A stretch of 64,000 nt of DNA from Gracilibacillus orientalis (GTDB lineage: Bacteria; Bacillota; Bacilli; Bacillales; Amphibacillaceae): assembly GCF_900114645.1 (NCBI RefSeq), contig NZ_FOTR01000009.1:1-64000 (forward strand), given 5' to 3'. Made by a program: the position numbers and the translations under genes. The notes under the pieces are model-generated. The model made no database searches. It had not been told where the DNA came from and saw only the letters and a program-made list of their open reading frames with translations. This document shows, piece by piece, positions 1 through 17,270 of the stretch (position 1 is the first letter of the stretch; each line of letters begins with the position of its first letter).

Positions 1-96
1 GATTAAGTCCATATAATTGTGTAAAAAGAAAAGTCATTATTAATTCCTCATGATACAATGTTTTCAACCACGATAAACAAAGAGGAGGAATTAATA

Positions 97-1266
97 ATGA
101 CCCAATTACATTTTAACCTAAACATGGAGGAATTAAAAGATTCCGTGATGAACTCTAATATGGAGGCAGTGGTGAAGTCCTCCATGGTTCTGATTTTGAA
201 TGAGTATATGAAAAAAGAACGGGATGCCTATTTAAAAGTAGATCATTATGAACGATCAGAAGAACGTCAAGATCAACGAAATGGCTACTATGACCGACAT
301 TATATGATGAGTGTAGGAAAAGTAAAACTGCGTGTTCCCCGTACAAGAAGTGGAGAGTTTTCTCCTAGTATTTTCGAGAAATATAAACGCGTGGACCAAG
401 CCTTTACATTAGCCATGCTAGAAATGGTCGTGAATGGTGTATCTACTCGCAAAGTAACGAACATTGTAAAAGAATTATGTGGAGAAGAAATTTCCAAGTC
501 GTTTGTTTCTTCGTTAACAGCGAAGTTAGATCCGATCGTGAAACAGTGGGCAGAACGACCGCTAAACACGATGGTCTATTGTCCATATGTATTTGTGGAT
601 GCGATGTATATTAAAGTACGTGAGCACCACAAAGTAGTATCCAAGGCGGTTTATATCGCCACAGCGATTAATGAACAAAACAAACGTGAAGTATTAGGGT
701 TAAAAGTGGATCACCAAGAAAGTTTTGAAGCTTGGCAAAGTTTCCTTCAATCCTTCGTAGCGCGTGGTTTATCTTCGCCAAAAATGATTATATCTGATGC
801 GCATCCTGGTCTTAAAAAAGCTATTGCCCAAACTTTCGTAGGTACAACATGGCAACGTTGTACCGTACACTTTAAACGCAATATTATTCACCATCTACCG
901 AAAAAAGGAAGGAAAGAGGTTATCCTAGATTTAAAACGTATCTTTCAGGCAGTGAAGCCGGAAGATGCACGCCGATTTAAAGAAGAATTCTTAAAAAAGT
1001 ACGAGGATAACACAAAACTTGAAAAAGCCAGGAAGGTGTTGGATGAAGGATTTGATGATGCCATTCAATATATGAATGAACCGGATAAATACCATCCTTT
1101 TATTCATAGTACCAATCATTTAGAACGATTAAATGAGGAAGTTCGAAGACGTGAGAGTGTCATCCGGATCTTTCCAAACACTCAATCCGCTTTTCGTCTC
1201 TTAGCTGCTTACTTAATGGAATATGCAGAAACAAAGCAACAACAAAGAGCACTTTTGAAAAATTAA
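97..1266 (+). CDS. IS256 family transposase
   Basis: A 389-residue mutator/IS256-type DDE transposase that excises and inserts the surrounding element. Visible family features are DAMYIKVR with the first catalytic Asp near residue 168, the SDAHPGL block with the second Asp near 235, the conserved WQRCTVHF motif, and a C-terminal NHLERLNEEVRRR segment that carries the catalytic Glu. The start at 97 is chosen over the ATG at 58 because AGAGGAGGAA sits 6-7 bases upstream of it. The first 13 codons of the longer frame read through this ribosome binding site. The C-terminus is complete. It is a mobile-element gene and not part of the neighbouring flagellar/fabZ region. Confidence 0.95.
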   Translation: MTQLHFNLNMEELKDSVMNSNMEAVVKSSMVLILNEYMKKERDAYLKVDHYERSEERQDQRNGYYDRHYMMSVGKVKLRVPRTRSGEFSPSIFEKYKRVDQAFTLAMLEMVVNGVSTRKVTNIVKELCGEEISKSFVSSLTAKLDPIVKQWAERPLNTMVYCPYVFVDAMYIKVREHHKVVSKAVYIATAINEQNKREVLGLKVDHQESFEAWQSFLQSFVARGLSSPKMIISDAHPGLKKAIAQTFVGTTWQRCTVHFKRNIIHHLPKKGRKEVILDLKRIFQAVKPEDARRFKEEFLKKYEDNTKLEKARKVLDEGFDDAIQYMNEPDKYHPFIHSTNHLERLNEEVRRRESVIRIFPNTQSAFRLLAAYLMEYAETKQQQRALLKN

Positions 1267-1294
1267 AAAGCACTTTGATAGCATGCCCATTTTC

Positions 1295-1326
1295 CACTGG
1301 GGGAAGGGGATCCCCTTCCCCCAGTG
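1295..1326. terminator. Perfect 32-bp palindrome after the transposase
   Basis: CACTGGGGGAAGGGGA is followed immediately by its exact complement. It is flanked by TTTTC on the left and AAAAAAT on the right, 28 bp after the transposase stop and inside the insertion sequence. The GC-rich foldback would stop transcription leaving the transposase gene or entering from outside. It lacks a long U tract on the plus strand, so it may act as an insulating hairpin instead of a classical intrinsic terminator. Confidence 0.6.
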
Positions 1327-1418
1327 AAAAAATAAATAACCGTCATATGTGGTGGAAACATTGTATTTTTACTTTTACACAAAATTAAGGACTTGACTAA
1401 ATCCTTATCCTTTCTTAT

Positions 1419-1455
1419 GAGATTTGTCAGTTATCTCAGTTTTTGTGACAAATCT
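1419..1455. repeat. Single copy of the 51-bp hairpin repeat (family A)
   Basis: GAGATTTGTCA and, 15 bases later, TGACAAATCT form a hairpin. The same arms recur as the unit of the arrays at 32.1 kb and 62.2 kb. Here there is one unit, directly beside the right end of the insertion sequence. Confidence 0.7.
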
Positions 1456-1479
1456 TTGCACCTCATCAACCTCTAAGAA

Positions 1480-1640
1480 AAGCTTAGTGCGCCCATTAGA
1501 AATGTAGCGACTTCAGAATCAACTGAGATAAAGGAATCACGGTGAGCGAGTGACGAGATGCTGACTTTCTGCCAAGAGCATAAGGGCGATTCGTGAAGTC
1601 GCCTATTTTCTGGGCGTTCGGAGCTAGACACCCGCGCAAT
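1480..1640. repeat. Dispersed repeat family B, full-length copy 1
   Basis: About 160 bp starting AAGCTTAGTGCGCCC and ending GGAGCTAGACACCCGCGC. It contains GATAAAGGAATCACGGTGAG, GCATAAGGGCG and GAAGTCGCCTA blocks. The same blocks appear in the same order at 31824-31984, as the 3' half at 32548-32626, and as the two ends only at 35480-35535. No coding potential is seen. The ends are partly self-complementary (GTGCGC / GCGC). Confidence 0.75.
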
Positions 1641-1666
1641 TTTTATACTTTCTGATATGACAAAAA

Positions 1667-1690
1667 AGAGAAGCTCAGCAAAGCTTCTCT
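1667..1690 (-). terminator. Terminator of fabZ
   Basis: Read on the minus strand, AGAGAAGCT and AGCTTCTCT form a 9-bp stem with a 6-base loop, followed by TTTTTTG. It lies 5 bases past the fabZ stop codon. Confidence 0.85.
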
Positions 1691-1695
1691 CTCCC

Positions 1696-2112
1696 TTATT
1701 TCACCGCAAATGTGATTTCCGCTTCACAAGCTAATTCTCCGTCTACTGTTGCGACGGCTTTTCCTTTACCAATCGGTCCTTTAATACGGATAATTTCGAC
1801 TTCAAGCTGAAGTTGATCTCCCGGTTTTACCTGACGCTTAAAACGACATTTGTCAATGCCAGCTAGAAAACCGATTTTACCTTTATTTTCCTCTTTACTC
1901 AAAATCGCAACGGCTCCGACCTGTGCTAATGCTTCAACAATTAACACACCAGGCATGACCGGATAATCTGGGAAATGCCCTTGAAAAAATGGTTCATTAA
2001 TCGTTACATTCTTTTTTCCGACAATTCGTTTGTCATCTTGTTCTGTGATCGCATCCACTAACAGAAATGGATAACGGTGTGGGATCGTTTCTTTAATTTG
2101 TTCAATATCCAT
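1696..2112 (-). CDS. fabZ: 3-hydroxyacyl-ACP dehydratase FabZ
   Basis: A 138-residue hot-dog-fold dehydratase of type II fatty acid synthesis. It removes water from beta-hydroxyacyl-ACP to give trans-2-enoyl-ACP in the cytoplasm. The N-terminal [11 protein letters not shown] segment and the active-site block [11 protein letters not shown] (catalytic His) followed by EALAQ (catalytic Glu) are both present, and the length is normal for the family. The start ATG at 2112 is preceded by AAAGGAG at about 8 bases. A longer in-frame reading to 2151 would cover that site. As in B. subtilis and relatives it follows the flhO-flhP block. Here a terminator-like hairpin (2349-2376) separates it from the flagellar genes, so it probably has its own promoter. 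Confidence 0.96.
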
Positions 2113-2426
2113 ATGTATGACTCCTTTCCTCACTCCACTAAAGTATATCAAAAAGCAGGAAAAAAATCATAGCTAAAAAAGATAGCCTATCTTTAGTGGT
2201 ATCTAAATAGGAGCGGTGCTACCACAATTCTTTGATAATGCAGCTTTTTCTTTGCTAAATCACCAGTTTGCATACAGAGGATAGAAAATGCTTCCCACAA
2301 AAACACAACCATTAAATGAAGCATCCACCTACACACTTTCATAAAAAACACGTAAATTCGATATTGAATTCACGTGTGAAATAACTTGTATACCTCAAAA
2401 CGGGCCCGTTAAGGAAAAATCTGTGG
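2113..2426. other. Intergenic region between the EpuA-type gene and fabZ
   Basis: No gene is visible in these 314 bases. A short perfect hairpin, AAAGATAG / CTATCTTT, lies at 2178-2194, and the terminator described separately lies at 2349-2376. A fabZ promoter is expected here but I could not assign it confidently. Confidence 0.5.
2349..2376 (-). terminator. Terminator of the flhO-flhP-epuA transcription unit
   Basis: On the minus strand CACGTGAATTC and GAATTTACGTG pair with one mismatch around a 6-base loop and are followed by TTTTTTATG. The hairpin lies about 50 bases after the EpuA-type gene. Confidence 0.8.
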
Positions 2427-2720
2427 TTATTCTTCTTTAACGAAATCGATGATATGTTGCCAGGTCCCCCATTTCAAGACGTCTAATGGGCTACCATCTC
2501 CAAGTATGCTAAAGCCTATAATGAGACCAACCATTAAAGCAAATAAACTTAACAAAACAATAATCAAAACCTTCGCCCAAATTGGAATGAGGCGACGTAC
2601 GTATTTTTTCTCTTTCTGTTTTTCATTTGCTCTTTTTGCCTTTTTGGTCTTTGTCTCAGCATTTTTTTGTTCATTTACTTTTTTGGTATTCTTATTTGTT
2701 GATTTTGTGTCCTCTGACAT
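2427..2720 (-). CDS. EpuA-type small membrane protein (often mis-named RNA polymerase beta subunit)
   Basis: A 97-residue protein. The first 40 residues are very Lys/Asn/Glu-rich and hydrophilic (KKAKRANEKQKEKK). Then follow RRLIPIWAKVLI and one strong membrane helix (about residues 45-70), and a C-terminal GDGSPLDVLKW..WQHI motif. That C-terminal motif is typical of the EpuA/DUF family found downstream of flhP in Bacillaceae. The topology is probably N-in with a short extracytoplasmic tail. Its function is unknown. Databases sometimes label such proteins as DNA-directed RNA polymerase subunit beta, which the sequence does not support. It follows flhP by 28 bp and shares its terminator, so it is likely co-transcribed with the flagellar genes. 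Confidence 0.8.
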   Translation of the reverse strand: MSEDTKSTNKNTKKVNEQKNAETKTKKAKRANEKQKEKKYVRRLIPIWAKVLIIVLLSLFALMVGLIIGFSILGDGSPLDVLKWGTWQHIIDFVKEE

Positions 2721-2748
2721 ACGGGATGACTCCTTATTAATAACTACA

Positions 2749-3579
2749 CTATCTCAACTGATTAATTAGACCACTCATTTGGTCATGCATTGAGATTGTT
2801 CGTGCATTAAATTGATATGCTCGTTGCGTTTCAATCATATCTGTAGTTTGTTTTGCCAAGTTTACATTGGAAGCCTCCAACGCACCACTTTTCATGTTGA
2901 CGTCCGCCAATCCAACCCCATTGATGACCTCGTCAAATGGATAATTTTCTAGAGATTGTTCGGATAAACGGAACAAACTATTTCCAGCAGCTTCTAACAA
3001 TCGCGGGCGTACTGCTTCAACAATTTCTAGTTGTCCTTCAACAGCTTGCACACCATTACGCGTTACATTGATCGTACCATTTTCCTCTATTTTCAGATCG
3101 TCCATATTATCATCTAATACAACCGGTTCTCCACCAGCTCCAAGCACTGGATTTCCATCAGAAGTAGCAAGCATTACCTGATCATCTTCCACTGGTGTCA
3201 AATAAAAATTCCCTGCTCTTGTATAACGGACTTCTTCTTCACCATTTTCATTAACTGCTACCTGAAAAAGATGGTTGTCTTCCAATAATGCAACATCAAG
3301 GTTACGATCCGTTACCTTTGATGATCCTTGTTCAAAATTAAAATTGGTATGACCAAGCTTAGCACCATTCCCAACTCGTAATCCATCTGGTGTTAAGCGT
3401 CCTTCTGGATTTGTCGGATCCGGCTCGGTGTTGATTTGCTGTGACAGCAAGGAAGAAAAGTTGGCATCACGGTTTTTATAGCCAGTTGTATTAACATTCG
3501 CAATATTATTACCGATATTATCTAATCGTTTTTGTAATTGCCCCATCGTTACGGCAGCTTGGAAGGTCATTCTTGTCAT
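2749..3579 (-). CDS. flhP: Flagellar hook-basal body protein FlhP (FlgG-like rod protein)
   Basis: A 276-residue axial flagellar protein of the FlgF/FlgG family. The N-terminus contains QLQKRLDNIGNNIANVNTTGYKNR, the conserved heptad and NNxANxxTxGYK signature of rod/hook subunits. The C-terminus ANVNLAKQTTDMIETQRAYQFNARTI is the matching helical terminus. Both ends pack into the rod after export through the flagellar type III apparatus. AAAGGGG lies 9 bases before the ATG. It is paired with flhO (17 bp gap) downstream of mbl, exactly as in B. subtilis, where FlhO and FlhP form the distal rod. Confidence 0.92.
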   Translation of the reverse strand: MTRMTFQAAVTMGQLQKRLDNIGNNIANVNTTGYKNRDANFSSLLSQQINTEPDPTNPEGRLTPDGLRVGNGAKLGHTNFNFEQGSSKVTDRNLDVALLEDNHLFQVAVNENGEEEVRYTRAGNFYLTPVEDDQVMLATSDGNPVLGAGGEPVVLDDNMDDLKIEENGTINVTRNGVQAVEGQLEIVEAVRPRLLEAAGNSLFRLSEQSLENYPFDEVINGVGLADVNMKSGALEASNVNLAKQTTDMIETQRAYQFNARTISMHDQMSGLINQLR

Positions 3580-3596
3580 TTAATTCTACCCCTTTA

Positions 3597-4421
3597 TCAT
3601 CCAAGTCGTGCAATTTCATTGACTGCTTTGTCTAAACTGCGATCGTATTGTTGGACTACTTTTTGGTTAGCTTCAAAACTGCGGTATGCCTGCATCATAT
3701 CTGTCATCGCTTTTGATGCGTCCACATTAGAGTTTTCTAGATGGTTTTGCTGAACATTGAATTGCAAGCCGTCTACACCTCTGGCATCCACCAATGCCTC
3801 ACCATCTGCTGCAAGTTCAAATAAATCTTGTCCGTTTTTAACTAAATTGTTAGGATTAGCACTATAAGCGATCCCAAGCGGAACTTCACCGCCGTCTAGT
3901 TGTACCATACCTTCTGGTGTCACCGTAAATGCTAAATTGTCAGTATTGACCGGATTCCCCGCATCATCTAAGACATAATAGCCATTATTAGTTGTTAAAT
4001 TCCCTTCACCATCCACAGTGAAATTACCGTTTCTCGTATAACAGTTTTCCCCTTCACCATTTTGTACAGTAAATAAAGTTAATCCTTCTTCATCCGGGGT
4101 TTCACCTTGTACTAATGCCATATCTGTTGAAATCCCTGTTTCCTGAAGACTTCCTTGTACGAAATCAGGTATCGTTTCTTGAACATATACCCCTGTGTTA
4201 ATGGCACCAATTTCAGACATTGTTGGAACAGTGCTACCTTGAGAATTGGGAATATCACGGTTTTCCATACGTTGAATTAATAACTCTGGAAATGCTTTTA
4301 GGGTTGTTTGATCTTGCTTGTATCCAGGTGTTTGTGCATTCGTTATATTATTGGACAACACTTCTTGTCTGCGTTGCTGTGCCATCATTCCATTTGTAGC
4401 AGTGTAAAAACCTCTAAGCAT
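3597..4421 (-). CDS. flhO: Flagellar hook-basal body protein FlhO (FlgF/FlgG-like rod protein)
   Basis: A 274-residue paralogue of FlhP. The N-terminal block is MLRGFYTATNGMMAQQRRQEVLSNNITNAQTPGYKQD (conserved residues SNNITNAQTPGYK), and the C-terminal block is ENSNVDASKAMTDMMQAYRSFEANQKV. It is predicted to be exported and assembled into the rod. GAGGAG is 8 bases before the ATG. It is the first gene of a flhO-flhP-epuA unit downstream of mbl. The 87-bp gap to mbl contains no clear terminator, so read-through from mbl is possible. Confidence 0.92.
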   Translation of the reverse strand: MLRGFYTATNGMMAQQRRQEVLSNNITNAQTPGYKQDQTTLKAFPELLIQRMENRDIPNSQGSTVPTMSEIGAINTGVYVQETIPDFVQGSLQETGISTDMALVQGETPDEEGLTLFTVQNGEGENCYTRNGNFTVDGEGNLTTNNGYYVLDDAGNPVNTDNLAFTVTPEGMVQLDGGEVPLGIAYSANPNNLVKNGQDLFELAADGEALVDARGVDGLQFNVQQNHLENSNVDASKAMTDMMQAYRSFEANQKVVQQYDRSLDKAVNEIARLG

Positions 4422-4508
4422 GAGTCGAACTCCTCTCCAAGTGACGCAAAGCTTTTATATATCTAGCTCTATTACGTCGCTAATTGGTCGCCATAAGCTT
4501 TTTATGTA

Positions 4509-5507
4509 TTACACAATCGAACGTTCTAATTTATCGATGTTATCTAGCATAATACCTGTCCCTTTTGCCACGCAGTTCATTGGTTCTTCCGCTAAAAGTA
4601 CAGGTACTTTCAGTTCTTCTGCCAACAACTGATCTAGACCATTCAACAGTGCACCACCACCAGTTAGAATAACACCTCTGTCGATAATATCTGCTGATAG
4701 CTCTGGTGGAGTTTTTTCTAAAACGGTCTTCGCTGATTGTACAATTAATGAAATTGATTCTCTTAGAGCTTCTTCCACTTCTTCGGAACGGATCGTAATT
4801 GTTCTCGGTAAACCAGTTACCATATCACGTCCACGGATATCGATTTCTTCGTTACGAGCACCTTGAAAAACGGTAGCTACGTTAACTTTAATATCTTCTG
4901 CAGTTCTTTCACCGATTAATAATTTATATTTACGTTTTACATGTTGAAGAATTTCACCATCGAATTTGTCACCGGCCATTTTGATCGATTGTGCCGTTAC
5001 GATATCTCCCATGGAAAGTACAGCGATATCTGTTGTTCCACCACCGATATCAACGACCATGTTTCCACTCGGTTGAAAAATATCCATTCCTGCACCGATT
5101 GCTGCTACTTTTGGTTCTTCTTCTAAATAGACTTTTTTACCGCCGGATTTTTCCGCCGCTTCTTTGATCGCCTTTTGTTCTACTTTCGTAATGTTAGTTG
5201 GGCAGCAAATTAGCATTCTCGGTTTCGATAAAAATCCTTTGACATTAATTTTATTAATAAAATATCTAAGCATCGATTCTGTGACATCAAAATCTGCGAT
5301 AACTCCATCCTTTAGTGGACGAATCGCTTCGATATTACCTGGTGTACGCCCAACCATACGTCGTGCTTCTTCACCAACTTCTAATACTTTTCCTGTATTG
5401 CGGTCCATCGCAACAACGGACGGTTCATCCAGTACAATGCCTTTGCCTTTCACATGAATAAGTACATTCGCAGTACCTAAATCTATTCCAATATCTCTTG
5501 AAAACAT
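4509..5507 (-). CDS. mbl: MreB-like actin homologue Mbl
   Basis: A 332-residue bacterial actin that forms membrane-associated filaments and directs cylindrical wall synthesis. The actin-fold nucleotide motifs are all present: IGIDLGTANVLI (phosphate 1), VVDIGGGTTDIAVLS (phosphate 2) and ILTGGGALLNGLD (adenosine). Position downstream of spoIIID and upstream of flhO-flhP separates it from MreB and MreBH, because spoIIID-mbl-flhO-flhP is the conserved B. subtilis order. AGGGAGGA precedes the ATG. The 268-bp upstream region is very AT-rich and shows no other gene. Confidence 0.96.
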   Translation of the reverse strand: MFSRDIGIDLGTANVLIHVKGKGIVLDEPSVVAMDRNTGKVLEVGEEARRMVGRTPGNIEAIRPLKDGVIADFDVTESMLRYFINKINVKGFLSKPRMLICCPTNITKVEQKAIKEAAEKSGGKKVYLEEEPKVAAIGAGMDIFQPSGNMVVDIGGGTTDIAVLSMGDIVTAQSIKMAGDKFDGEILQHVKRKYKLLIGERTAEDIKVNVATVFQGARNEEIDIRGRDMVTGLPRTITIRSEEVEEALRESISLIVQSAKTVLEKTPPELSADIIDRGVILTGGGALLNGLDQLLAEELKVPVLLAEEPMNCVAKGTGIMLDNIDKLERSIV

Positions 5508-5775
5508 GAACGTTTATCCTCCCTATTTCATTACCTTGCTTGAGATTTATGTCGGTTAATTAATGATGTTTTTGTCATCTGCTAGTTAATGTCTTTTCTA
5601 TTATGGTACATAATACCTCTAATTATATATAATATCATAAAATGATGAAGATCGTTATAGCTTTCTATAAAAAAATGTGGTTTTTTTTGGAATATATATG
5701 ATAGAAAGGTGCATCTGTTATTAGAATGGTGTCCATCTGGAGGTATATGTATGAATTAGAGAGGATATCATTGGG

Positions 5776-6066
5776 TTACTTTGTTAATAGTTCTTCTGTT
5801 TCCGGTGGTATTTTTTTACCATCAAGTTGATATTTCACTTTGGTTGCTTCTCCACCACGTAAGTGCCGAATTGCTTTATGGTGACTTAAAATGGTTTTGA
5901 CTTCGTTTGCTAGTTCGGGATGTATGTCTGGTAAGCGCTCTGTGAGATCTTTGTGTACTGTACTTTTTGAAACTCCAAATTCCTTGGCGATAATTCGAAC
6001 CGTTTTCTTCGTTTCGACAATGTACCTTCCAATCCTTAATGTTCTCTCTTTGATGTAGTCATGCAC
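5776..6066 (-). CDS. spoIIID: Stage III sporulation transcriptional regulator SpoIIID
   Basis: A 96-residue mother-cell DNA-binding regulator that activates or represses many sigma-E genes. It is almost colinear with the B. subtilis protein: MHDYIKERTLRIGRYIVETKKTVR, then the helix-turn-helix IAKEFGVSKSTVHKDLTERLP (about residues 27-47), then the basic C-terminal segment HHKAIRHLRGGEATKVKYQ. The start is GTG, with GGGAGG 8 bases upstream. A perfect 10-bp inverted repeat (6092-6101 and 6161-6170) lies in the leader. It is separated from mbl by 268 bp. Confidence 0.96.
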   Translation of the reverse strand: MHDYIKERTLRIGRYIVETKKTVRIIAKEFGVSKSTVHKDLTERLPDIHPELANEVKTILSHHKAIRHLRGGEATKVKYQLDGKKIPPETEELLTK

Positions 6067-6091
6067 ATCACTCGCCTCCCAAAAGTTGTCA

Positions 6092-6170
6092 GTCTAAGGT
6101 GTGAACAGAGACAAGTACTACCATATAAAATTATCCATAATACCTAACAACTAGCATCCTCACCTTAGAC
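6092..6170. promoter_or_regulatory. Inverted repeat upstream of spoIIID
   Basis: GTCTAAGGTG at 6092-6101 and its exact complement CACCTTAGAC at 6161-6170 flank 59 AT-rich bases immediately before the spoIIID ribosome binding site. A sigma-E promoter is expected between them, but I could not match one convincingly. The arms could be two copies of an operator in opposite orientation or a long-range RNA stem. Confidence 0.4.
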
Positions 6171-6361
6171 AAATAAAACATAATTTGTACCATCTTATTA
6201 AACAGCACATCCCAATATGACAGTAATTTTCGGGTTGGCATGCAAGTAAGAGGGGTTTTGTCCGCGCGGGATAAGGCCTTATTCAAATAATGGATTATTT
6301 TTCTTGACGAGTTATGACTTTCTGTTCATGAGATATAACCAGTTATTTTCCCGAACAGCAT

Positions 6362-6393
6362 AAAAAAGTGATGACGAGTGTCATCACTTTTTT
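6362..6393. terminator. Strong bidirectional terminator after the AimR-like receptor unit
   Basis: AAAAAAGTGATGAC and GTCATCACTTTTTT form a perfect 14-bp stem with loop GAGT, with U tracts for both directions. It closes a short transcript that holds the AimR-like receptor and the 15-codon ORF after it. Confidence 0.93.
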
Positions 6394-6397
6394 AACC

Positions 6398-6445
6398 CTA
6401 GCCAATATCACCGTAATCAGGATCAAACTTTTTTACCAACTTCAT
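6398..6445 (-). CDS. Candidate 15-residue signalling peptide, MKLVKKFDPDYGDIG
   Basis: A short frame beginning 28 bases after the receptor stop and ending 4 bases before the terminator. The ATG at 6445 has GGGAG with an 8-base gap, a textbook ribosome binding site. An earlier in-frame ATG at 6466 would give 22 residues (adding MGVGEKS) but lacks a site of its own. The peptide has a basic start and an acidic, Gly-ending tail, DPDYGDIG, and no hydrophobic export signal. RRNPP-type receptors, including AimR, usually have their peptide gene directly downstream, which is why I propose this as the cognate signal. Phage AimP precursors are longer, about 40 residues, with a secretion signal, so this would be a different, leaderless type. 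A non-translated spacer remains possible. Confidence 0.45.
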   Translation of the reverse strand: MKLVKKFDPDYGDIG

Positions 6446-6473
6446 AGACTTTTCTCCCACTCCCATATTTTCT

Positions 6474-7505
6474 TTATATTCCTAAACCTTCTGAAGCCTT
6501 AAGTGGCAATCTTGCGAAAAAGTGATCACTCCTTTTCTCCATAAAGTATTGATAAGAATATATAAAAAAATGTTGCTTTCTTGTTGCCAATCCCAAGTAA
6601 TAATGTGTAAATGGAGTTTTAATGTCTAGATGTTCTAATATGGTTTTTGCTTGTTGGAAGTTCCCTTTAGCAATTTCTAGGTGGGCTCGTTCTACGGGAT
6701 CCTTGGTGAAAACCCCATTCACTTTCCCAAAATGGGCACAAATAAATGGATACGTATAATTTTCAATATAATCTAATATTTCTTGATCGCCTAAGCAATT
6801 AGCTATGTATTTTGCTTCTTCGATATGATAGACACTAGATTCAAAATCTTCGTATATATAACTGAGGGCTAAGTCTAGGTGGAGTTGTGCTTTTTGTTTT
6901 ACATGATGTGGTATTTGCAACGCTTCATAGGCGTGCTTTCTAGCTAAAATTAACTCATTCCTCTTCCAGTAGTATTGAAATAATAAGATCTGTATTCTAA
7001 TCTGGAAGAAGGTAATAAATAGTGGGTTGTCTAGATGACGTAGATGCTTTTGTATCTTGTTTAAATAGTAACCTATTCGTTCATAGTTGTATACTTTAAT
7101 ATCTGCTTCAATATATAAAAAGTATTTTAAACACCTTAATTCAGGATGATGAACGGAAACCGATTTCGTCTGTGTCCTTATTTGATGAACAGGTTTTCCA
7201 TTTTTCAAATCTAGCATGAATTGATATAGTATCGCTAATACTCGATTTGATTCATTCATACTTTCTTTATTTACTCCTATAAAATATTGTAATTCCTGAT
7301 AGCATTGGTTAATATAAAAATATTCTAGAGCCAATCGCTTATCTAAGTCTGATTTGCTTTGAAGCAGGAAATCTTTTGTCAGTTCCAGCTGTGCCGCTTC
7401 GTCGCTATCTAAGCTGATCATTGTTAAAAATTGAGGTAGTTGCAATTGCTTTTCTGATTCAAAATAGTCGCGCATTGTCCCTATTCTTTTTTTTGTTTGT
7501 ACCAT
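6474..7505 (-). CDS. AimR-family (arbitrium-type) peptide receptor homologue
   Basis: A 343-residue, mostly alpha-helical TPR-like protein. The C-terminal third matches the layout of phage SPbeta/phi3T AimR as I recall it: ERAHLEIAKGNFQQAKTIL (AimR has EQAH..), then FTHYYLGLA (AimR HYYLKGR), then HFFARLPLKASEGLG (AimR FLIRLPLLELEKMG). Residues 25-75 (LPQFLTMI..LTKDFLLQ..RLALEYF) align with AimR from about residue 50. In phages AimR is a DNA-binding regulator switched off by a secreted hexapeptide to favour lysogeny. Here the roughly 30-40 N-terminal residues that carry the DNA-binding helices in phage AimR appear to be missing, although AAAGGAG 7-8 bases before the ATG fixes the start. No phage genes are nearby; neighbours are spoIIID and spoIIQ. 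The regulated target is unknown. Confidence 0.8.
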   Translation of the reverse strand: MVQTKKRIGTMRDYFESEKQLQLPQFLTMISLDSDEAAQLELTKDFLLQSKSDLDKRLALEYFYINQCYQELQYFIGVNKESMNESNRVLAILYQFMLDLKNGKPVHQIRTQTKSVSVHHPELRCLKYFLYIEADIKVYNYERIGYYLNKIQKHLRHLDNPLFITFFQIRIQILLFQYYWKRNELILARKHAYEALQIPHHVKQKAQLHLDLALSYIYEDFESSVYHIEEAKYIANCLGDQEILDYIENYTYPFICAHFGKVNGVFTKDPVERAHLEIAKGNFQQAKTILEHLDIKTPFTHYYLGLATRKQHFFIYSYQYFMEKRSDHFFARLPLKASEGLGI

Positions 7506-7666
7506 AATTTATCTCCTTTCACAGTTATTTATTATTTCATATTCGAGAAATTATGCAATAGGTTTTTTGATAGAATCGTTCGTCAAATAGTTATTGATAT
7601 CGACAGTATTTGAGTGATTTTCATAGCTATCAAGTAGAATATATAAGAATAGCGTTGAAAAATGAA

Positions 7667-7702
7667 AAATCTCCCTACCTTTTTCACAGGTAAGGAGATT
7701 TT
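7667..7702 (-). terminator. Terminator of spoIIQ
   Basis: On the minus strand AAAATCTCC..ACCT and AGGT..GGAGATTTT pair around a 7-base loop and end in TTTTTCATTTTTC. It starts 2 bases after the spoIIQ stop. Confidence 0.85.
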
Positions 7703-7704
7703 GT

Positions 7705-8664
7705 TTACGCATTTTCCATTGCACTTGAAGATTCTGTTTCATTTTCAGAGTTTGCATTGTCTTCTGATTCTGATGAGCTGTCTTCTGTTGAACTCTCATC
7801 TTCTACTGAACTGTCTTCTTCTACTGAACTGTCTTCTTCTGTTGAACTCTCATTTTCTGTTGAGCTATCTTCTTCCGTTGCATTGTCATTTTCCTCTGAA
7901 CCTTCGTCTTCCTTCTCTTCATCTTCTGTAGCTGGTTCCTTGTCTTCTTCCTCACCCTTATCAGGTGCTACAATCTTATTAATTGGTTGATTAATAAAAT
8001 CCTCTGGGTTGACCGGTGTTCCGTCTTTTCTTACTTCAAAATGTGTGTGAACACCATTATCTTGACCTAGTGTATTCTGCCCAGCTGTTCCGATGGTTTG
8101 ACCTTGCTTTAGCTCATTGCCCTTTTCTGCAAATACTTCGTCTAAACTAGCGTAGTACGTGGAAACGCCATGCTCATGCTCCATCTTTACTACTTTACCT
8201 AGTAATGGATCTTGCTTTACTTCTGTAACTGTTCCAGACAAAGATGCTGTTACATCAAATGCCTCATCGTCAGAAGTTGAGAGGGCAATTCCATCACTTT
8301 GGTAGTATTTGTTTTGATGTGAAATGAGCGCCTGTTCTTGTTCTTCTGCACCTGCACCATAATCATAAAATTTGGTCACGATTTCCACTTGCATGTCTTC
8401 TGAAACTGGCATCTCTAATACTTCCTGTTGTTGCATGACAGTAGTTGCGTCTTCTTCATCTTCTGCTTCTTGATCTGTTGCTAAATCATCTAGTTGATTT
8501 TCCATGTCCTCAGCTAAGTCTGGTGCTTGATTGATAGCATTTTGGTACCATAGAACTCCTGTTAAAAGTAGAGCAGCTACCGCTAAATATACAGCAGGAA
8601 AAAACCATCTTTTCTTGAAGATACGTTTCCAACTATTTTTTGAAACGTTCTTGTTTTCCTCCAT
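7705..8664 (-). CDS. spoIIQ: Forespore engulfment/channel protein SpoIIQ (degenerate M23/LytM domain)
   Basis: A 319-residue forespore membrane protein that pairs with SpoIIIAH across the septum during engulfment. A short basic cytoplasmic tail is followed by one transmembrane helix (about residues 21-42, WFFPAVYLAVAALLLTGVLW) and a LytM domain (about residues 110-225). In the domain, FDVTASLSGTVTEVKQDPLLG and GVHTHFEVRKDGTPVNPEDF are typical. The first zinc-ligand motif (HxGxD) reads SDGIA, losing both ligands, so it is probably non-catalytic, as in B. subtilis SpoIIQ. The last 80 residues are an unusual Ser/Glu/Asp-rich repeat (units like STEEDSS, SVEEDSS) ending SSSAMENA. The upstream region contains a sigma-F promoter match, and its own terminator follows. 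Confidence 0.93.
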   Translation of the reverse strand: MEENKNVSKNSWKRIFKKRWFFPAVYLAVAALLLTGVLWYQNAINQAPDLAEDMENQLDDLATDQEAEDEEDATTVMQQQEVLEMPVSEDMQVEIVTKFYDYGAGAEEQEQALISHQNKYYQSDGIALSTSDDEAFDVTASLSGTVTEVKQDPLLGKVVKMEHEHGVSTYYASLDEVFAEKGNELKQGQTIGTAGQNTLGQDNGVHTHFEVRKDGTPVNPEDFINQPINKIVAPDKGEEEDKEPATEDEEKEDEGSEENDNATEEDSSTENESSTEEDSSVEEDSSVEDESSTEDSSSESEDNANSENETESSSAMENA

Positions 8665-8684
8665 TATGCATCACCTCAGCAACC

Positions 8685-8713
8685 ATTGTGATCATAAAGA
8701 GGAAATTTTATAC
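8685..8713 (-). promoter_or_regulatory. Candidate sigma-F promoter of spoIIQ
   Basis: On the minus strand GTATA (8709-8713), a 15-base spacer and GATCACAAT (8685-8693) match the forespore sigma-F pattern GTATA-N15-GGNNANANT with one mismatch. It ends about 20 bases before the spoIIQ ATG. B. subtilis spoIIQ is sigma-F dependent, so both position and identity fit. Confidence 0.6.
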
Positions 8714-8721
8714 ATGTTTTT

Positions 8722-9780
8722 TTATTTTTTTGCTAAAAGCGTCGGCGTTGCCTTTTCTAGCGTACTCACTTGTACACCCTTGTAGTAATATTCTATGATC
8801 TCTTTATATGTTTTGCCTTCTTGCGCCATCCCGTTTGCCCCGTATTGACTCATTCCTACACCATGACCATTTCCCTTTGTTGTAAACACATAATGATCAT
8901 CCTTTTTGGTAATCGTGAAATCACTTGATGGTAGTTGAAGAAGATCCCGAATATCGCGTCCTGAGAAGGTGGTTCCGCCAATTGCTGCCGTCTCTACCCG
9001 TTTGCTTTCTGTTCTTGTCAGTTGAAAATCTTTTACTGATTCTGAGAGATTGATATCTAATTTTTCTTCCAAATCTGCTATAGTGAATATTTTTTGATCG
9101 ATAAATTTAGGAGATATTTCTTCATCCCATGGACTTTCGACAGATCGTAAATAAGGCAATTCACCTTCCCAATAATCTTCGGAGTTTTCCGTATAGCCAT
9201 TACTTGTTGAAAAAAAGGATGCAGTGATTGGTTCATTACTGTACGTAATAATCTCTCCTTGGGTCGCTGCAACTGCTTCCGTTATTTTATCGATTTTCCA
9301 ATGGTAATCACTACCCCAAATTTGTCTTAGTTCGTCTCCATTTTTATATACTTGATGTTCGATGGTGTCTTTCACATCAGCTCCACCAGTCAATTCCTTT
9401 TTATTTTCTTGCATCAGAAATCGTACGATAAAGGTTCTTGCTGCCATTGCCTGAGCTTTTAATGCTTCGATCTCAAAGTCTGCAGGCATTTCGGAGGCAA
9501 CCACATGAGTTACATACTCCTCTAATGGGATTTGTTCCACTTCACTTGTTTCCGATCGTAATACATGGACATCAAATGGAGATTCTAATGAAATGGGTGT
9601 TTCGGTTGTTGTTTTGCTAGCTGTTTCCGTTTCTACAGATGCTTGAGATGAATCATCCCCTGTAAAAGGTATAACAATAAGGGTTGGGATGATAAACATT
9701 AATGTAAGTAATGTGGAGATGACGATGATAGTTGGTAATTTCCAGTTGGTTAGTGATTGTTTATTCTGCCATCTGGCCAT
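8722..9780 (-). CDS. spoIID: Stage II sporulation protein D (peptidoglycan lytic transglycosylase)
   Basis: A 352-residue mother-cell membrane enzyme that cuts glycan strands in the septal wall during engulfment, as part of the SpoIID-SpoIIM-SpoIIP machine. An N-terminal membrane anchor lies at about residues 15-38 (LPTIIVISTLLTLMFIIPTLIVI). The SpoIID/LytB domain follows, with LEEYVTHVVASEMPADFEIEALKAQAMAARTF, the SNGYTENSEDYW region and the conserved C-terminal GHGVGMSQYGANGMA. AGAGGAGG lies before the ATG. The gene is separated from murAA by a repeat-filled 428-bp gap, and from spoIIQ by 57 bp that holds the spoIIQ promoter. Confidence 0.95.
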   Translation of the reverse strand: MARWQNKQSLTNWKLPTIIVISTLLTLMFIIPTLIVIPFTGDDSSQASVETETASKTTTETPISLESPFDVHVLRSETSEVEQIPLEEYVTHVVASEMPADFEIEALKAQAMAARTFIVRFLMQENKKELTGGADVKDTIEHQVYKNGDELRQIWGSDYHWKIDKITEAVAATQGEIITYSNEPITASFFSTSNGYTENSEDYWEGELPYLRSVESPWDEEISPKFIDQKIFTIADLEEKLDINLSESVKDFQLTRTESKRVETAAIGGTTFSGRDIRDLLQLPSSDFTITKKDDHYVFTTKGNGHGVGMSQYGANGMAQEGKTYKEIIEYYYKGVQVSTLEKATPTLLAKK

Positions 9781-9893
9781 GGATAACCTCCTCTGTGTTT
9801 CTTATGATTCTACTCTATCTTATTCATGAGAATAGGAGATTAGAACAAATAAAAGCTCAAAACGTCGATTAGAGAGTGGGCTTGGACTTTTCA

Positions 9894-10043
9894 TATAATC
9901 AGGCGTCGTGCTCTTTTTTTGATGTGTGAATCGCTTATAAATGCGTATAATCAGGAGTCATGCTCTTTTTGATGCGTGAATCTCTTATAAAAGTATATAA
10001 TCGGGATTCATGCTCTTTTTTTGATGCTGAATCGCTTAAATAG
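9894..10043. repeat. Tandem repeat, three diverged copies of 50-52 bp
   Basis: Copies start at 9894, 9946 and 9996. The shared pattern is TATAATC-GG-[GA]-TCATGCTC, a T run of 5-7, GATG..TGAATC[GT]C, then TTATAAA. Copy 1 and copy 2 differ mainly in the T-run length and a few substitutions. No coding potential is seen. The run-length differences suggest slippage. Confidence 0.75.
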
Positions 10044-10167
10044 TTTTGGCAAGCGCATGTATTCTTTTGTAACGTCTCCTAGCAATTAACAACCATCCAA
10101 ATGATAGGGGACAAATCCATAGTACGGTAGAGAAATGATTTTGTTATCTTCATTTTATCGTACAATG

Positions 10168-10207
10168 AAAAAAGAGGACTAGCTTTTATTAAAGCTGTCC
10201 TCTTTTT
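10168..10207. terminator. Terminator of murAA
   Basis: AAAAAAGAGGAC and GTCCTCTTTTT form the outer stem, and AGCTTT / AAAGCT the inner stem. The hairpin directly follows the murAA stop and is U-rich in both directions. Confidence 0.9.
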
Positions 10208-10208
10208 A

Positions 10209-11516
10209 TTATTGTACTTCTACTTGTTGTTGTACTCCGGTTATAATAGTGGTTTCTCCTTGGTTTACCCTTTCAATATCTGCTCCTAAACTAGCAAACT
10301 TCTTTGTAATATCCACATATCCTCTGTCGATATGATAGAGAGAAGTTACACGAGTATATCCTTCTGCTACCAATCCAGCTAAAATCAAGGCTGCTCCGGC
10401 ACGTAAATCAGTCGCGGCTACTTCTGCCCCCTGAAGGCTAACAGGGCCTTCTACGATGACACTACGCCCTTCTATCTTTAATTTAGCGTTCATTCTGCGG
10501 AATTCCTCGACATGCATAAAGCGATTTTCAAAAACGGTTTCAGTAATCACACCCGTACCTGATGCCTGTAACATCAATGCCATCATTTGTGATTGCATAT
10601 CTGTCGGAAATCCTGGGTGTGGTAATGTTTTGATATCAGTAGATTTTAATTTTTTGGGACCGATCACTCGGATGCCATTTTTCTCTTCATTAATTTTAAC
10701 GCCCATTTCTTCCATTTTGGAAACAAGGGCACGAACATGCTCAATCTCAGCGTTGTCTATTAAAACATTACCACCTGTAATAGCTGCTGCTACCATAAAT
10801 GTTCCTGCTTCGATACGGTCTGGAATAATCGTATGCTCTACTCCGCGAAGCTGGTCGACACCTTCGATCTTAATTGTCTCTGTGCCTGCACCTACAATTT
10901 TAGCACCCATTTTGTTTAAATAATTCGCCAAATCAACTATTTCCGGCTCTTTTGCCGTATTTTCGATAACAGTTTTTCCTTTTGCAAGTGCGGCTGCCAT
11001 CATAATGTTCTCCGTTGCACCAACACTAGGCATATCTAAATAAATCTTTGCCCCTTTTAATCTATCTCTAGTAGAGACCTCGACAAAGCCATTACCAACA
11101 TGGACTTCAGCCCCCATAGCTTCAAATCCTTTTAAATGCAGGTCTATTGGTCGTGATCCAATTGCACATCCACCAGGTAATGCTACTTTCGCATGACCAT
11201 AACGTGCTAAAAGAGGCCCTAAAACCAGGACAGATGCTCGCATTTTTCTTACATATTCAAAAGGCGCTTCCGTTAATAATGGTTTTGTAGCATCAACTGT
11301 TACAGTATTTTTTTGATAGTTAACTTCTGCATTCATATGCGTTATTACTTGATTTATTGTGTGTACATCTGCCAAAGCAGGTACTTCGTGTATAATGCTT
11401 TTCCCTTCACTTGCGATTATACTTGCGGCAATGACAGGCAGTACGGCATTTTTCGCTCCCTCAATTCTTACGGTACCATTTAACTGCCTACCACCACGTA
11501 CGATGATATTTTCCAA
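10209..11516 (-). CDS. murAA: UDP-N-acetylglucosamine 1-carboxyvinyltransferase MurAA
   Basis: A 435-residue enzyme of the first committed step of peptidoglycan synthesis. It transfers enolpyruvate from PEP to UDP-GlcNAc and is the fosfomycin target. N-terminal [12 protein letters not shown] and the active-site loop [18 protein letters not shown] with Cys117 are intact, and [15 protein letters not shown] is the conserved C-terminal block. The start is TTG, with GAGGAG 8 bases before it. Position between spoIID and ywmB-ywzB-atp is the B. subtilis murAA locus. A second paralogue (murAB) lies at 37.7 kb. Confidence 0.96.
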
Positions 11517-11551
11517 GGCTCATTCTCCTCTGTAGACCATATTCATTATTA

Positions 11552-12271
11552 TTAGTATTCATGTATTAGGATAGGTGTTCCTATAGTGACTGTTGTCCGA
11601 TCCCCTATCCGCTCTCTTACAGCGATTTGCAAATTAATTTCTTCATCATTTTGCTTCAATTTATTTTCCCATTTTGGTGTAAAGCCAGTCCATGTATTAA
11701 AATGCGGCTCTTTCGTTTCGTCGATTATTGTCATATTCAGTGTCGATTTTACAAAATCTATAAAACAAACAATATCTATAATACCATCTTTCCATGCATC
11801 AACACAAGAAAAATATTGCGCATTCTCTGTAAATAATTCATTAGTCATTGAATTAATTTTTTCTTTGTACACTTTTAGCACTGCTGGTGCTGTTTCTGTC
11901 ATGGAAATAGTATAAATAACTTGGTACTGATTTTCTTGTTCGTTTGTGCGTACTAATAAGAGAGTTTCGGTAATGTCACTGTTTTCTTGTCGGTCTGAAT
12001 CGAATTTTAGACGATTATGTTCTTCATCATTTTTTTGTATAGTAAGTTGATACCCGTTGATTTTCGAAATAAAACTATCTATATCTGAAATTTCCATTGA
12101 TTCTCTAATAGTAGTTTGCAAGTTTGATAGTTTTAGATTCTGCTCTTCCACTAGTTCTATCATATCGTCTATTTCCTTTTGATTGGCTATATTTGTTTTT
12201 GTCTCAATAAATAATTGGTCTACAAAAAACATCATTCCTACTGTCGCAAGCAATATAAATAAATACTTCAT
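11552..12271 (-). CDS. ywmB: YwmB-family secreted or membrane-anchored protein
   Basis: A 239-residue protein of unknown function. A short hydrophobic N-terminus (KYLFILLATVGMMFFVDQLF) looks like a signal peptide or anchor. The rest is a soluble extracytoplasmic domain, with MTETAPAVLKVYKEKINSMTNELFTENAQYFSCVDAW and FTPKWENKL as its recognisable YwmB-type blocks. The family lies between murAA and ywzB in Bacillaceae and is sometimes described as TATA-box-binding-like only by fold. It is 35 bp upstream of murAA and probably co-transcribed with it. Identification rests on position and general sequence character. Confidence 0.75.
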   Translation of the reverse strand: MKYLFILLATVGMMFFVDQLFIETKTNIANQKEIDDMIELVEEQNLKLSNLQTTIRESMEISDIDSFISKINGYQLTIQKNDEEHNRLKFDSDRQENSDITETLLLVRTNEQENQYQVIYTISMTETAPAVLKVYKEKINSMTNELFTENAQYFSCVDAWKDGIIDIVCFIDFVKSTLNMTIIDETKEPHFNTWTGFTPKWENKLKQNDEEINLQIAVRERIGDRTTVTIGTPILIHEY

Positions 12272-12362
12272 TTCCCCGCACTCCTTTTTTATTAGAAGTA
12301 TTGGCAGGAAATAAAGTATTCATACTCTTTTTTATTATTTTGTTATGGAAATGACCGGCGTA

Positions 12363-12596
12363 CTAAAAAAGGTAAATTATTTGTTGTGACCACTTTAAGA
12401 AGTCTAAGAAAAAATTACTCACGGTTGAACCAATGGCTATAGTGATGAAGATAACTAATATTCGTGCTTCATACACTTTATTCTTTCTAAATAATTCATC
12501 GAAATTAAGTGCTTGAAGGACTTGCCACGTAATAACAATAAAAATGAGATGGGACAACATCCCGATCAAGCCCTCTTGCCCTAAAGTTTGCATCAT
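12363..12596 (-). CDS. ywzB: DUF1146-family membrane protein YwzB
   Basis: A 77-residue protein with two predicted membrane helices (about residues 12-30, LSHLIFIVITWQVLQALNF, and 45-68, ILVIFITIAIGSTVSNFFLDFL). The WQVLQALNF..LF motif between them and the length are typical of DUF1146/YwzB, which sits between ywmB and atpC in Bacillaceae. Its function is unknown. It is probably the first gene of a ywzB-ywmB-murAA unit. GAGGGA lies a few bases upstream. Confidence 0.85.
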   Translation of the reverse strand: MMQTLGQEGLIGMLSHLIFIVITWQVLQALNFDELFRKNKVYEARILVIFITIAIGSTVSNFFLDFLKWSQQIIYLF

Positions 12597-12898
12597 ATTA
12601 TATCCCTCGTTTACTTGTTTTTTTCTATTTTAACATATCTATTGGAGATTCGCCTTTATCAGATATACTTCGATATTTCCCGGGAAATTTAGCTAAAATT
12701 TTTTATTATTAGGTCTACCGCTGTAATAGCCCCCCATTTTATTCCATATTAGAATTAGAGGCTAGTCTGAGGTATGAGAAAAGAACATAGAATAGTTAAT
12801 ATGGTGGAGATGAGTGAGTATTGATCAAAATAGATTTACTATCAACTTAAAAAAGGGCTGCACTCAACCTAAATGATTGAGGCAGCCCCTTTTCATAG
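12597..12898. other. Intergenic region between atpC and ywzB
   Basis: About 300 AT-rich bases with the atp operon terminator at the atpC end (12850-12893). I see no gene and no confident promoter for ywzB. Confidence 0.5.
12850..12893. terminator. Terminator of the ATP synthase operon
   Basis: AAAAGGGCTG and CAGCCCCTTTT with inner CTCAA / TTGAG form a long stem directly after the atpC stop, with U runs on both sides. Confidence 0.9.
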
Positions 12899-13309
<411 letters not shown>

Positions 13310-13334
13310 TTAGGCTGAAATGAAGTGGGTAAGT

Positions 13335-13353
13335 GGGACAGTTCGTCTGTCCC
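13335..13353. repeat. Short GGGACAG foldback between atpD and atpC
   Basis: GGGACAG and CTGTCCC face each other across 5 bases, extended by TGGGT / ACCCA outside. A similar GGACAAG / CTTGTCC foldback rich in GGGGACAGGGG lies at 29345-29369. It sits in an intercistronic gap of the operon and has no U run, so it is not a terminator. Confidence 0.55.
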
Positions 13354-13361
13354 CTGACCCA

Positions 13362-14777
<1,416 letters not shown>

Positions 14778-14808
14778 CTAACTAAAGATTTACTACCGTA
14801 CGATTGTA

Positions 14809-15678
<870 letters not shown>

Positions 15679-15755
15679 TCACCGCCCTTTCCTAAAAGGT
15701 TGAACGCTATTACTAACAAAATGTCGCTAACCCGACACTTTCGCTTTTTCTATCA

Positions 15756-17270
<1,515 letters not shown>

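Follow-up and report, generated by a model that had tools for sequence, protein, structure and literature searches.

Receptors of the RRNPPA class combine a TPR fold with a paired short peptide gene, and the locus described here, on the chromosome of the salt-loving spore former Gracilibacillus orientalis, resembles them in both respects, its ligand binding being putative as judged from the sequence and a predicted model. With the AimR-AimP-AimX system of the SPbeta-group phages it shares the profile, the fold, the position of the peptide gene right after the receptor, and the core residues of the pocket. It differs from that system in the lack of a complete HTH, the location at a chromosomal spore locus, the DP-type peptide without leader in Gracilibacillus, the loss of the backbone-anchoring Asn and Thr residues, and, as far as could be seen, in not being encoded by a phage or other mobile element. 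Rap-Phr is similar in being a TPR peptide sensor without HTH, tied to the control of sporulation and with the cognate peptide gene beside many receptors (described in part in the accessible text of PMC9765709). The leaderless communication peptides of the SIP-RopB type likewise come from a very short ORF beside an RRNPPA receptor and carry no secretion leader; here, unlike SIP-RopB, the receptor is AimR-like without a complete HTH, and the ORF exceeds the 8-residue tail in length.

Published accounts of chromosomal AimR and of DPG peptides already exist: chromosomal AimR-type receptors are represented by the so-called eavesdroppers and by RRNPPA subfamilies 08 and 21 (PMC9765709, PMC12700828). 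In the portions of these papers available to us, the DPG motif is described as common in the peptides of AimR and of subfamily 08, and subfamily 21 as chromosomal in Alkalihalobacilli; an overlap of the clade described below with subfamily 21 is possible. Rap is said to be the only RRNPPA subfamily without HTH in the available text of PMC9765709, and one further HTH-less subfamily, of Anoxybacter, is given in that of PMC12700828. Within the titles and partial texts returned by our literature search, nothing was found on the spoIIQ-spoIIID site, on HTH loss in AimR, on leaderless AimR peptides or on 0A boxes; no paper combined AimR with spoIIQ, and most of those retrieved for AimR with Spo0A or AimR with leaderless were, by their titles, on other systems.

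We propose that the locus specifies a Spo0A-linked peptide switch of Rap-like, non-DNA-binding mode, built on the AimR fold and belonging to the bacterial chromosome, and we assign to this reading a rough probability of 0.55. The features on which the proposal is based are listed in Table 1, in which the window means the whole 64,000-nucleotide stretch of DNA that was analysed.

Table 1. Features of the receptor-peptide locus and its surroundings (positions in the window unless stated otherwise)
Feature	Position	Strand	Basis
spoIIID, downstream neighbour	5776..6066	-	PF12116, 5.6e-39
Intrinsic terminator of receptor-peptide unit	6362..6393	-	-20.5 kcal/mol, z -5.9
Leaderless peptide ORF MKLVKKFDPDYGDIG, 15 codons	6398..6445, stop included	-	between receptor stop and terminator
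Conserved octapeptide DPDYGDIG, presumed active ligand	6401..6424	-	codon conservation, single genome copy
AimR-family receptor without complete HTH (receptor or paralogue A), 343 aa	6474..7505	-	profile, sequence, predicted fold
Ribosome-binding site AGGAG of receptor A	7513..7517	-	
Sigma-A-like promoter TTGCAT-16-AATAAT, TG before -10	7531..7558	-	conserved in genus
TTTGACGAACGATT, carries Spo0A-box core TGNCGAA at -80	7574..7587	-	
TGTCGATA, further 0A-like box, imperfect, lying 20 bp upstream of the core-bearing one	7598..7605	-	genus alignment by eye
spoIIQ, upstream neighbour	7705..8664	-	Pfam, M23 peptidase
Second AimR-like receptor (paralogue B)	contig 64651-65673 (L003:4643-5677)		PF22871, 202.7 bits

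The initial annotation had placed a 343-residue ORF at 6474-7505 and had ascribed to it the C-terminal architecture of AimR. The coordinates proved exact, on the minus strand, and the architecture was borne out by the AimR profiles of Pfam (PF22871; 197 bits, 4.4e-58, cut-off 26.7) and NCBIfam (NF038310; 142 bits, cut-off 70), by phrog_1728 (134 bits), and by the AimR chains of PDB that were matched in a sequence search. At the level of sequence, the AimR assignment of receptor A is well beyond chance. The AlphaFold model, which covers the window protein alone, gave a pLDDT of 93.6, and in the structure search with this model 16 AimR chains ranked ahead of the first Rap chain, the Rap rows beginning at model residue 49 or later. 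The Pfam list consisted of AimR and a sub-threshold TPR_MalT only, the Rap N-terminal domain PF18801 being absent. Thus in the comparison by structure and profile that had been advised, AimR came ahead of Rap and no other TPR family scored better. No match was obtained at E <= 1e-3 in the viral structure library BFVD, a result to which we give no weight. Receptor A is accordingly modelled as an AimR-type TPR superhelix. Among the best 80 of 99 related loci, a listing from which the window's own record is possibly left out, the eleven closest were all from Gracilibacillus, with 51-85% identity.

The position of the receptor between spoIIQ and spoIIID was confirmed, by PF12116 for the latter and by the M23 domain and position for the former, whose name rests on its place beside a spoIID-like ORF identified by eye. 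The spoIIQ gene has its own terminator at 7666-7702; the next gene recognised downstream of the receptor-peptide unit is spoIIID, followed by mbl and then by flagellar-type genes, the flagellar names being given by eye. Rfam scanning of 5000-9000 at gathering thresholds detected nothing. The Pfam scan near the receptor included six other proteins of the window, one of which, a Mutator-type transposase (PF00872) at 58-1266 on the plus strand, is the sole mobile gene noticed near the receptor.

Matches to profile PF22871 above its cut-off were obtained for 125 of the 159 family genomes and for 80 out of 397 drawn from the order. A part of these matches, 162 distinct receptor ORFs, was sorted by location: 111 at spoIIQ/spoIIID (site A), 32 at speB/ywiB (site B, including two pieces of one broken gene), and 19 elsewhere. 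The survey of conservation suggested with the initial annotation thus found 111 of 162 receptor ORFs adjoining spoIIQ or spoIIID. A relative at the spoIIQ-spoIIID site is present in most sampled genera of the family, and both sites are occupied in another family of the order (f36). On an IQ-TREE tree of 93 rows, which is quick, unrooted and with long branches, all the sampled site-A and site-B receptors belonged to a single clade of 66 rows (SH-aLRT 99), separate from phi3T AimR. Two f36 site-A receptors were grouped with site-B types and not with site A of the family; label A needs 4 changes, and site A was therefore not simply inherited as one. At one site (L108, genome G102) an apparent tandem duplication was noted, with two equal-scoring AimR-like genes and, ahead of spoIIID, another match to spoIIQ.

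AimR is best known from phages, and the family name by itself would suggest a domesticated prophage arbitrium system or a prophage remnant. Such an origin appears highly improbable from the distribution of the receptor, as one site is shared by many genera of the family and the pair of sites recurs in a second family. The 66-row clade apart from phi3T AimR also speaks against it, in a tree that, being unrooted, is compatible with a host-to-phage as well as a phage-to-host direction at depth. In agreement with the claim that the surroundings are free of phage genes, none was noticed in the ORF translations of 1-16000, read by eye.

Receptor A is short at the N-terminus. Its residue 38 aligns with residue 62 of SPbeta AimR, corresponding to 24 residues fewer; the reading frame is closed upstream, and the stop-to-stop frame holds 61 residues ahead of the E61 column, against 83-112 in the rows labelled as HTH. 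The N-terminal 20 residues of the model were of low confidence (block pLDDT 46 and 66). For several AimR entries, VIA-align superposes the first residue of the model on chain residue 13-14, and therefore this stub still covers part of the HTH region. As far as can be judged from the sequence and the model, the N-terminus falls some 24 residues short of what the DNA-binding HTH of AimR would need. The short form recurs at the spoIIQ/spoIIID site across the bacterial family. Stop-to-stop frames of at least 83 residues ahead of E61 were found for 4 of 34 rows at site A and 4 of 19 at site B, so that the absence of an HTH from these rows is based on the sequence and the chosen start and not on the length of the frame. 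The HTH labels on the tree were assigned by hand from the N-terminal sequences, and the label needs 4 changes, indicating that loss of the HTH within AimR probably happened more than once.

Other arrangements of AimR-like genes were observed in the course of this comparison. A further set of AimR-like genes (L260, L261, L262 and L265), from another family within the order, has only 47 residues ahead of the E61 column, apparently a separate loss of the HTH; downstream of some of them lie leadered ORFs whose tails are SPRIQS-like. Seven tandem AimR-like genes with an HTH-looking N-terminal region lie at 1942-10483 of L048 (genome G029); a leadered propeptide bearing repeats of a PLGGG-like tail comes after the last of the seven, and no such ORF after the others as listed. 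On plasmid pDMB05-1 of Bacillus velezensis (L247, 694-3107), a 320-aa AimR with no space for an HTH lies near an integrase and adjoins separate HTH genes and an AimP-family gene ending in GFGRGA, apparently a split arbitrium system.

The TPR protein might regulate DNA still, by means of an HTH partner supplied in trans such as SpoIIID. This small HTH protein is encoded next to the receptor at most site-A loci, and the 320-aa AimR of the B. velezensis plasmid stands beside separate HTH genes. Adjacency alone is, however, a weak argument, spoIIID has a known role of its own, and the recognised neighbours at site B, speE, speB, ywiB and argS, do not code for HTH proteins; we thus consider a partner of this kind unlikely.

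The initial annotation had interpreted the gene as a host-borne arbitrium-like receptor with its own terminator. The AimR family, the chromosomal spore locus and the terminator, which was found by folding energy and is absent from the pattern-scan list, all hold; the DNA-binding part is truncated, and a peptide ORF between the stop codon of the receptor and the terminator had been overlooked. An in-frame ATG at 6466, upstream of the start of MKLVKKFDPDYGDIG, would extend the product of this ORF to 22 aa. For 17 Gracilibacillus copies, the last 8 codons gave pS 0.70, pN 0.047 and pN/pS 0.066, and the 7 codons ahead of them pN/pS 0.916, the values being summed over sequence pairs and hence not independent. 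From this codon comparison, the octapeptide is under strong purifying selection. The DNA pattern of the octapeptide was detected as exactly one copy in each of the 17 Gracilibacillus genomes, with 0 control matches; no second, leadered copy was found elsewhere in these genomes with the pattern used.

Downstream of the receptor, an ORF with a DP tail was detected in 78 of the 111 site-A rows (77 without L081, which is probably false), leaving 33 rows without it (34 counting L081). The corresponding figures were 0/32 for site B and 8/19 for receptors elsewhere. The motif was set after the peptides had been seen, and the controls were scored with the same motif, giving 127 of 5550 mononucleotide shuffles (2.3%) and 0 of 111 reverse strands. 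The consensus of the tail is DP-(D/E/G)-(aromatic/Leu)-G-(D/E)-hydrophobic. Judged solely by a hydropathy threshold, a hydrophobic leader is lacking in 16/16 peptide ORFs at site A of Gracilibacillus, and is carried by 61 rows of other genera (60 by script, L067 via a later start). The best reading of these sequences is that the peptide signal lost its leader in Gracilibacillus.

An ORF of 15 codons only, located directly before a terminator, could represent a transcript leader or attenuator element without any ligand. We give little credence to this interpretation, since the constraint is limited to the last 8 codons and operates at protein level, and the stem-loop sequences 3' of the ORF differ between species. 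Moreover, the tail follows a hydrophobic leader in other genera and is present in 2 to 5 repeats in some, the form of a pheromone precursor, and the peptide ORF survives without the receptor in genome G007, described below.

Paralogue B, 31% identical to receptor A, is located 651 bp past the window end, between genes named by eye that we take to be speE and speB before it and ywiB and argS after it. It is also short at the N-terminus, and no DP-tail ORF follows it. This speB/ywiB site is likewise occupied in several further genera and in a second family. In the Gracilibacillus genome G007, the single PF22871 match is paralogue B, and none was obtained at the spoIIQ-spoIIID site (L245, reverse strand about 700-1260), which retains the promoter, the 0A-like box, the peptide ORF and the terminator. 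Searching G007 by tblastn with 12 receptors revealed no remnant of receptor A, the lowest E being 0.15 among the matches listed for the first four queries; on this ground, and with paralogue B as the sole PF22871 match, receptor A is taken as absent or decayed past recognition. Since promoter and peptide were kept without receptor A, the DPDYGDIG peptide probably serves also paralogue B beside speB-ywiB.

In the available part of PMC9765709, chromosomal AimR is interpreted as an eavesdropper, i.e., a host receptor without a signal of its own that listens to phage arbitrium peptides, and chromosomal AimR outside prophages is mostly without a detected propeptide. Paralogue B and the 33 of 111 site-A rows without a peptide ORF would agree with this proposal. 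For the present locus we judge it very unlikely. Site A of Gracilibacillus has its own conserved peptide ORF, which is invisible to a secretion filter because it is leaderless, and the DP tail does not resemble those arbitrium peptides that are given in the accessible part of PMC6458997. Nor was a source among viruses apparent: the IMG/VR search for receptor relatives, seeded by pattern and limited to proteins with two short conserved stretches in common, returned none, and the matches in phage records were 9, all of phi3T-like AimR with 27% identity over 51% of the query. The plasmid search gave one relative.

Of the 26 published positions contacting the peptide in SPbeta AimR, 25 were mapped onto receptor A. 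The SPbeta contacts F276, E300, D360, F362, L363 and L366 fall on invariant or nearly invariant columns; F254, E272 and F329 of receptor A are invariant in 65 rows, and D327, F330 and L333 nearly so. The mean entropy was 1.55 for the contact columns versus 1.89 for all 310 mapped columns (permutation P 0.04), the contacts being, taken together, somewhat more conserved. The backbone anchors N202, T236 and N239 of SPbeta, together with N206, correspond to the unlike residues Q177, D211, L214 and K181, and the mode of peptide binding is therefore uncertain. Among 140 rows of at least 300 aa, the core of the pocket was nearly the same in receptors with a peptide (77), without one (33), and at site B (30). 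An exception is position 330, where 21 of the 30 site-B rows have Tyr; all 30 carry Trp180 and Lys181. Covariation between receptor and peptide was also considered: where position 4 of the peptide is Tyr, Phe or His, the receptor has Trp180 in 47/49 and Lys181 in 41/49 cases, and where it is Leu or Met, Trp180 is lacking in 19/23. The raw counts are strong, but with only 3-5 independent pairs the pairing may reflect ancestry, and it was not counted as evidence.

The core of the B. subtilis 0A box is the 7-bp TGTCGAA, according to the accessible text of PMC3485338. The extended form of the box upstream of receptor A, TTTGNCGAACGATT, has its sole copy in the 4.6 Mb genome at this promoter. Within 200 nt upstream of the receptor, TGNCGAA was present in 16/16 Gracilibacillus and 75/95 other site-A loci (91/111 together), and in 7/30 at site B; the controls gave 5-7% of mononucleotide shuffles and 8/48, 26/285 and 12/90 stretches inside genes, and the window as a whole holds 35 copies versus 31 expected. 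The Gracilibacillus receptors have TGACGAA as the core, including the window copy, with TGGCGAA in one; in most other genera it is TGTCGAA. Of the promoters used as positive controls in Gracilibacillus, the core was detected for spo0A in 16/16 scanned (of 17 loci, the split gene of L308 being left out), for spoIIAA in 7/17 and for spoIIGA in 0/17. Because of this mixed result, the box argues well, though not decisively, for control by Spo0A. The assignment of the sigma-A-like promoter is based on its conservation, as the sigma-70 scan was no better than for shuffles and the site was unlisted.

In the Spo0A-linked switch that we favour, Spo0A~P would control the receptor-peptide unit. A ligand consisting of the octapeptide or of a closely similar trimmed form would bind on the concave TPR surface in the manner of arbitrium peptides in AimR, and would reshape the superhelix so as to alter its hold on a partner protein, not on DNA, by analogy with Rap-Phr, in which Rap dephosphorylates Spo0F~P or blocks a response regulator. 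The outcome may be a feedback on sporulation or the stationary-phase programme, in genomes mostly without Rap. The Rap N-domain PF18801, a short profile that can miss members, was detected in 13 of the 159 family genomes (12 over the cut-off) and in 0/17 of Gracilibacillus; Rap is also missing from genomes without the receptor, for instance G041. Synteny with spore genes does not equal function.

In most genera, the hydrophobic Sec-type leader would make the peptide a secreted pheromone. With the leader gone, the Gracilibacillus peptide would be either a private ligand or exported by a non-Sec route, and we hold these two readings to be about equal. As a private intracellular ligand it would form a cell-autonomous timer, made together with the receptor and accumulating after Spo0A activation. 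Alternatively, it might, like leaderless communication peptides, be exported independently of Sec and imported again, with quorum sensing retained in Gracilibacillus. Export and re-import of such peptides in streptococci is described in the available part of PMC10518010 and makes this second course possible, if tentative; the streptococcal peptides act, however, on RopB-type receptors, and the N-terminal 7 codons of the Gracilibacillus peptide are unconserved (pN/pS 0.92) and so give no sign of an export signal. Paralogue B, without a peptide of its own, probably would answer to the same octapeptide. A far wider scheme can be drawn, in which a secreted pheromone became a private intracellular ligand by loss of its leader with the octapeptide almost unchanged, two AimR-fold receptors without DNA binding replaced Rap-Phr in sporulation timing under Spo0A control, and AimR is mainly a family of bacterial sporulation sensors with phage arbitrium as one branch; this scheme we regard as doubtful.

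The spore cluster of a mostly Rap-less family thus contains relatives of AimR that lack a full HTH and of which many have a peptide of their own and, upstream, a Spo0A-box core, a finding which suggests that bacteria use the AimR receptor family for their own purposes. Three questions become open to test: the role of AimR before, or apart from, its use by phages, the way in which RRNPPA receptors pass from acting on DNA to acting on proteins, and the possibility that a pheromone turns into an internal signal. For the last of these, the leader loss in Gracilibacillus and genome G007, with its peptide and promoter but no neighbouring receptor, are natural experiments.
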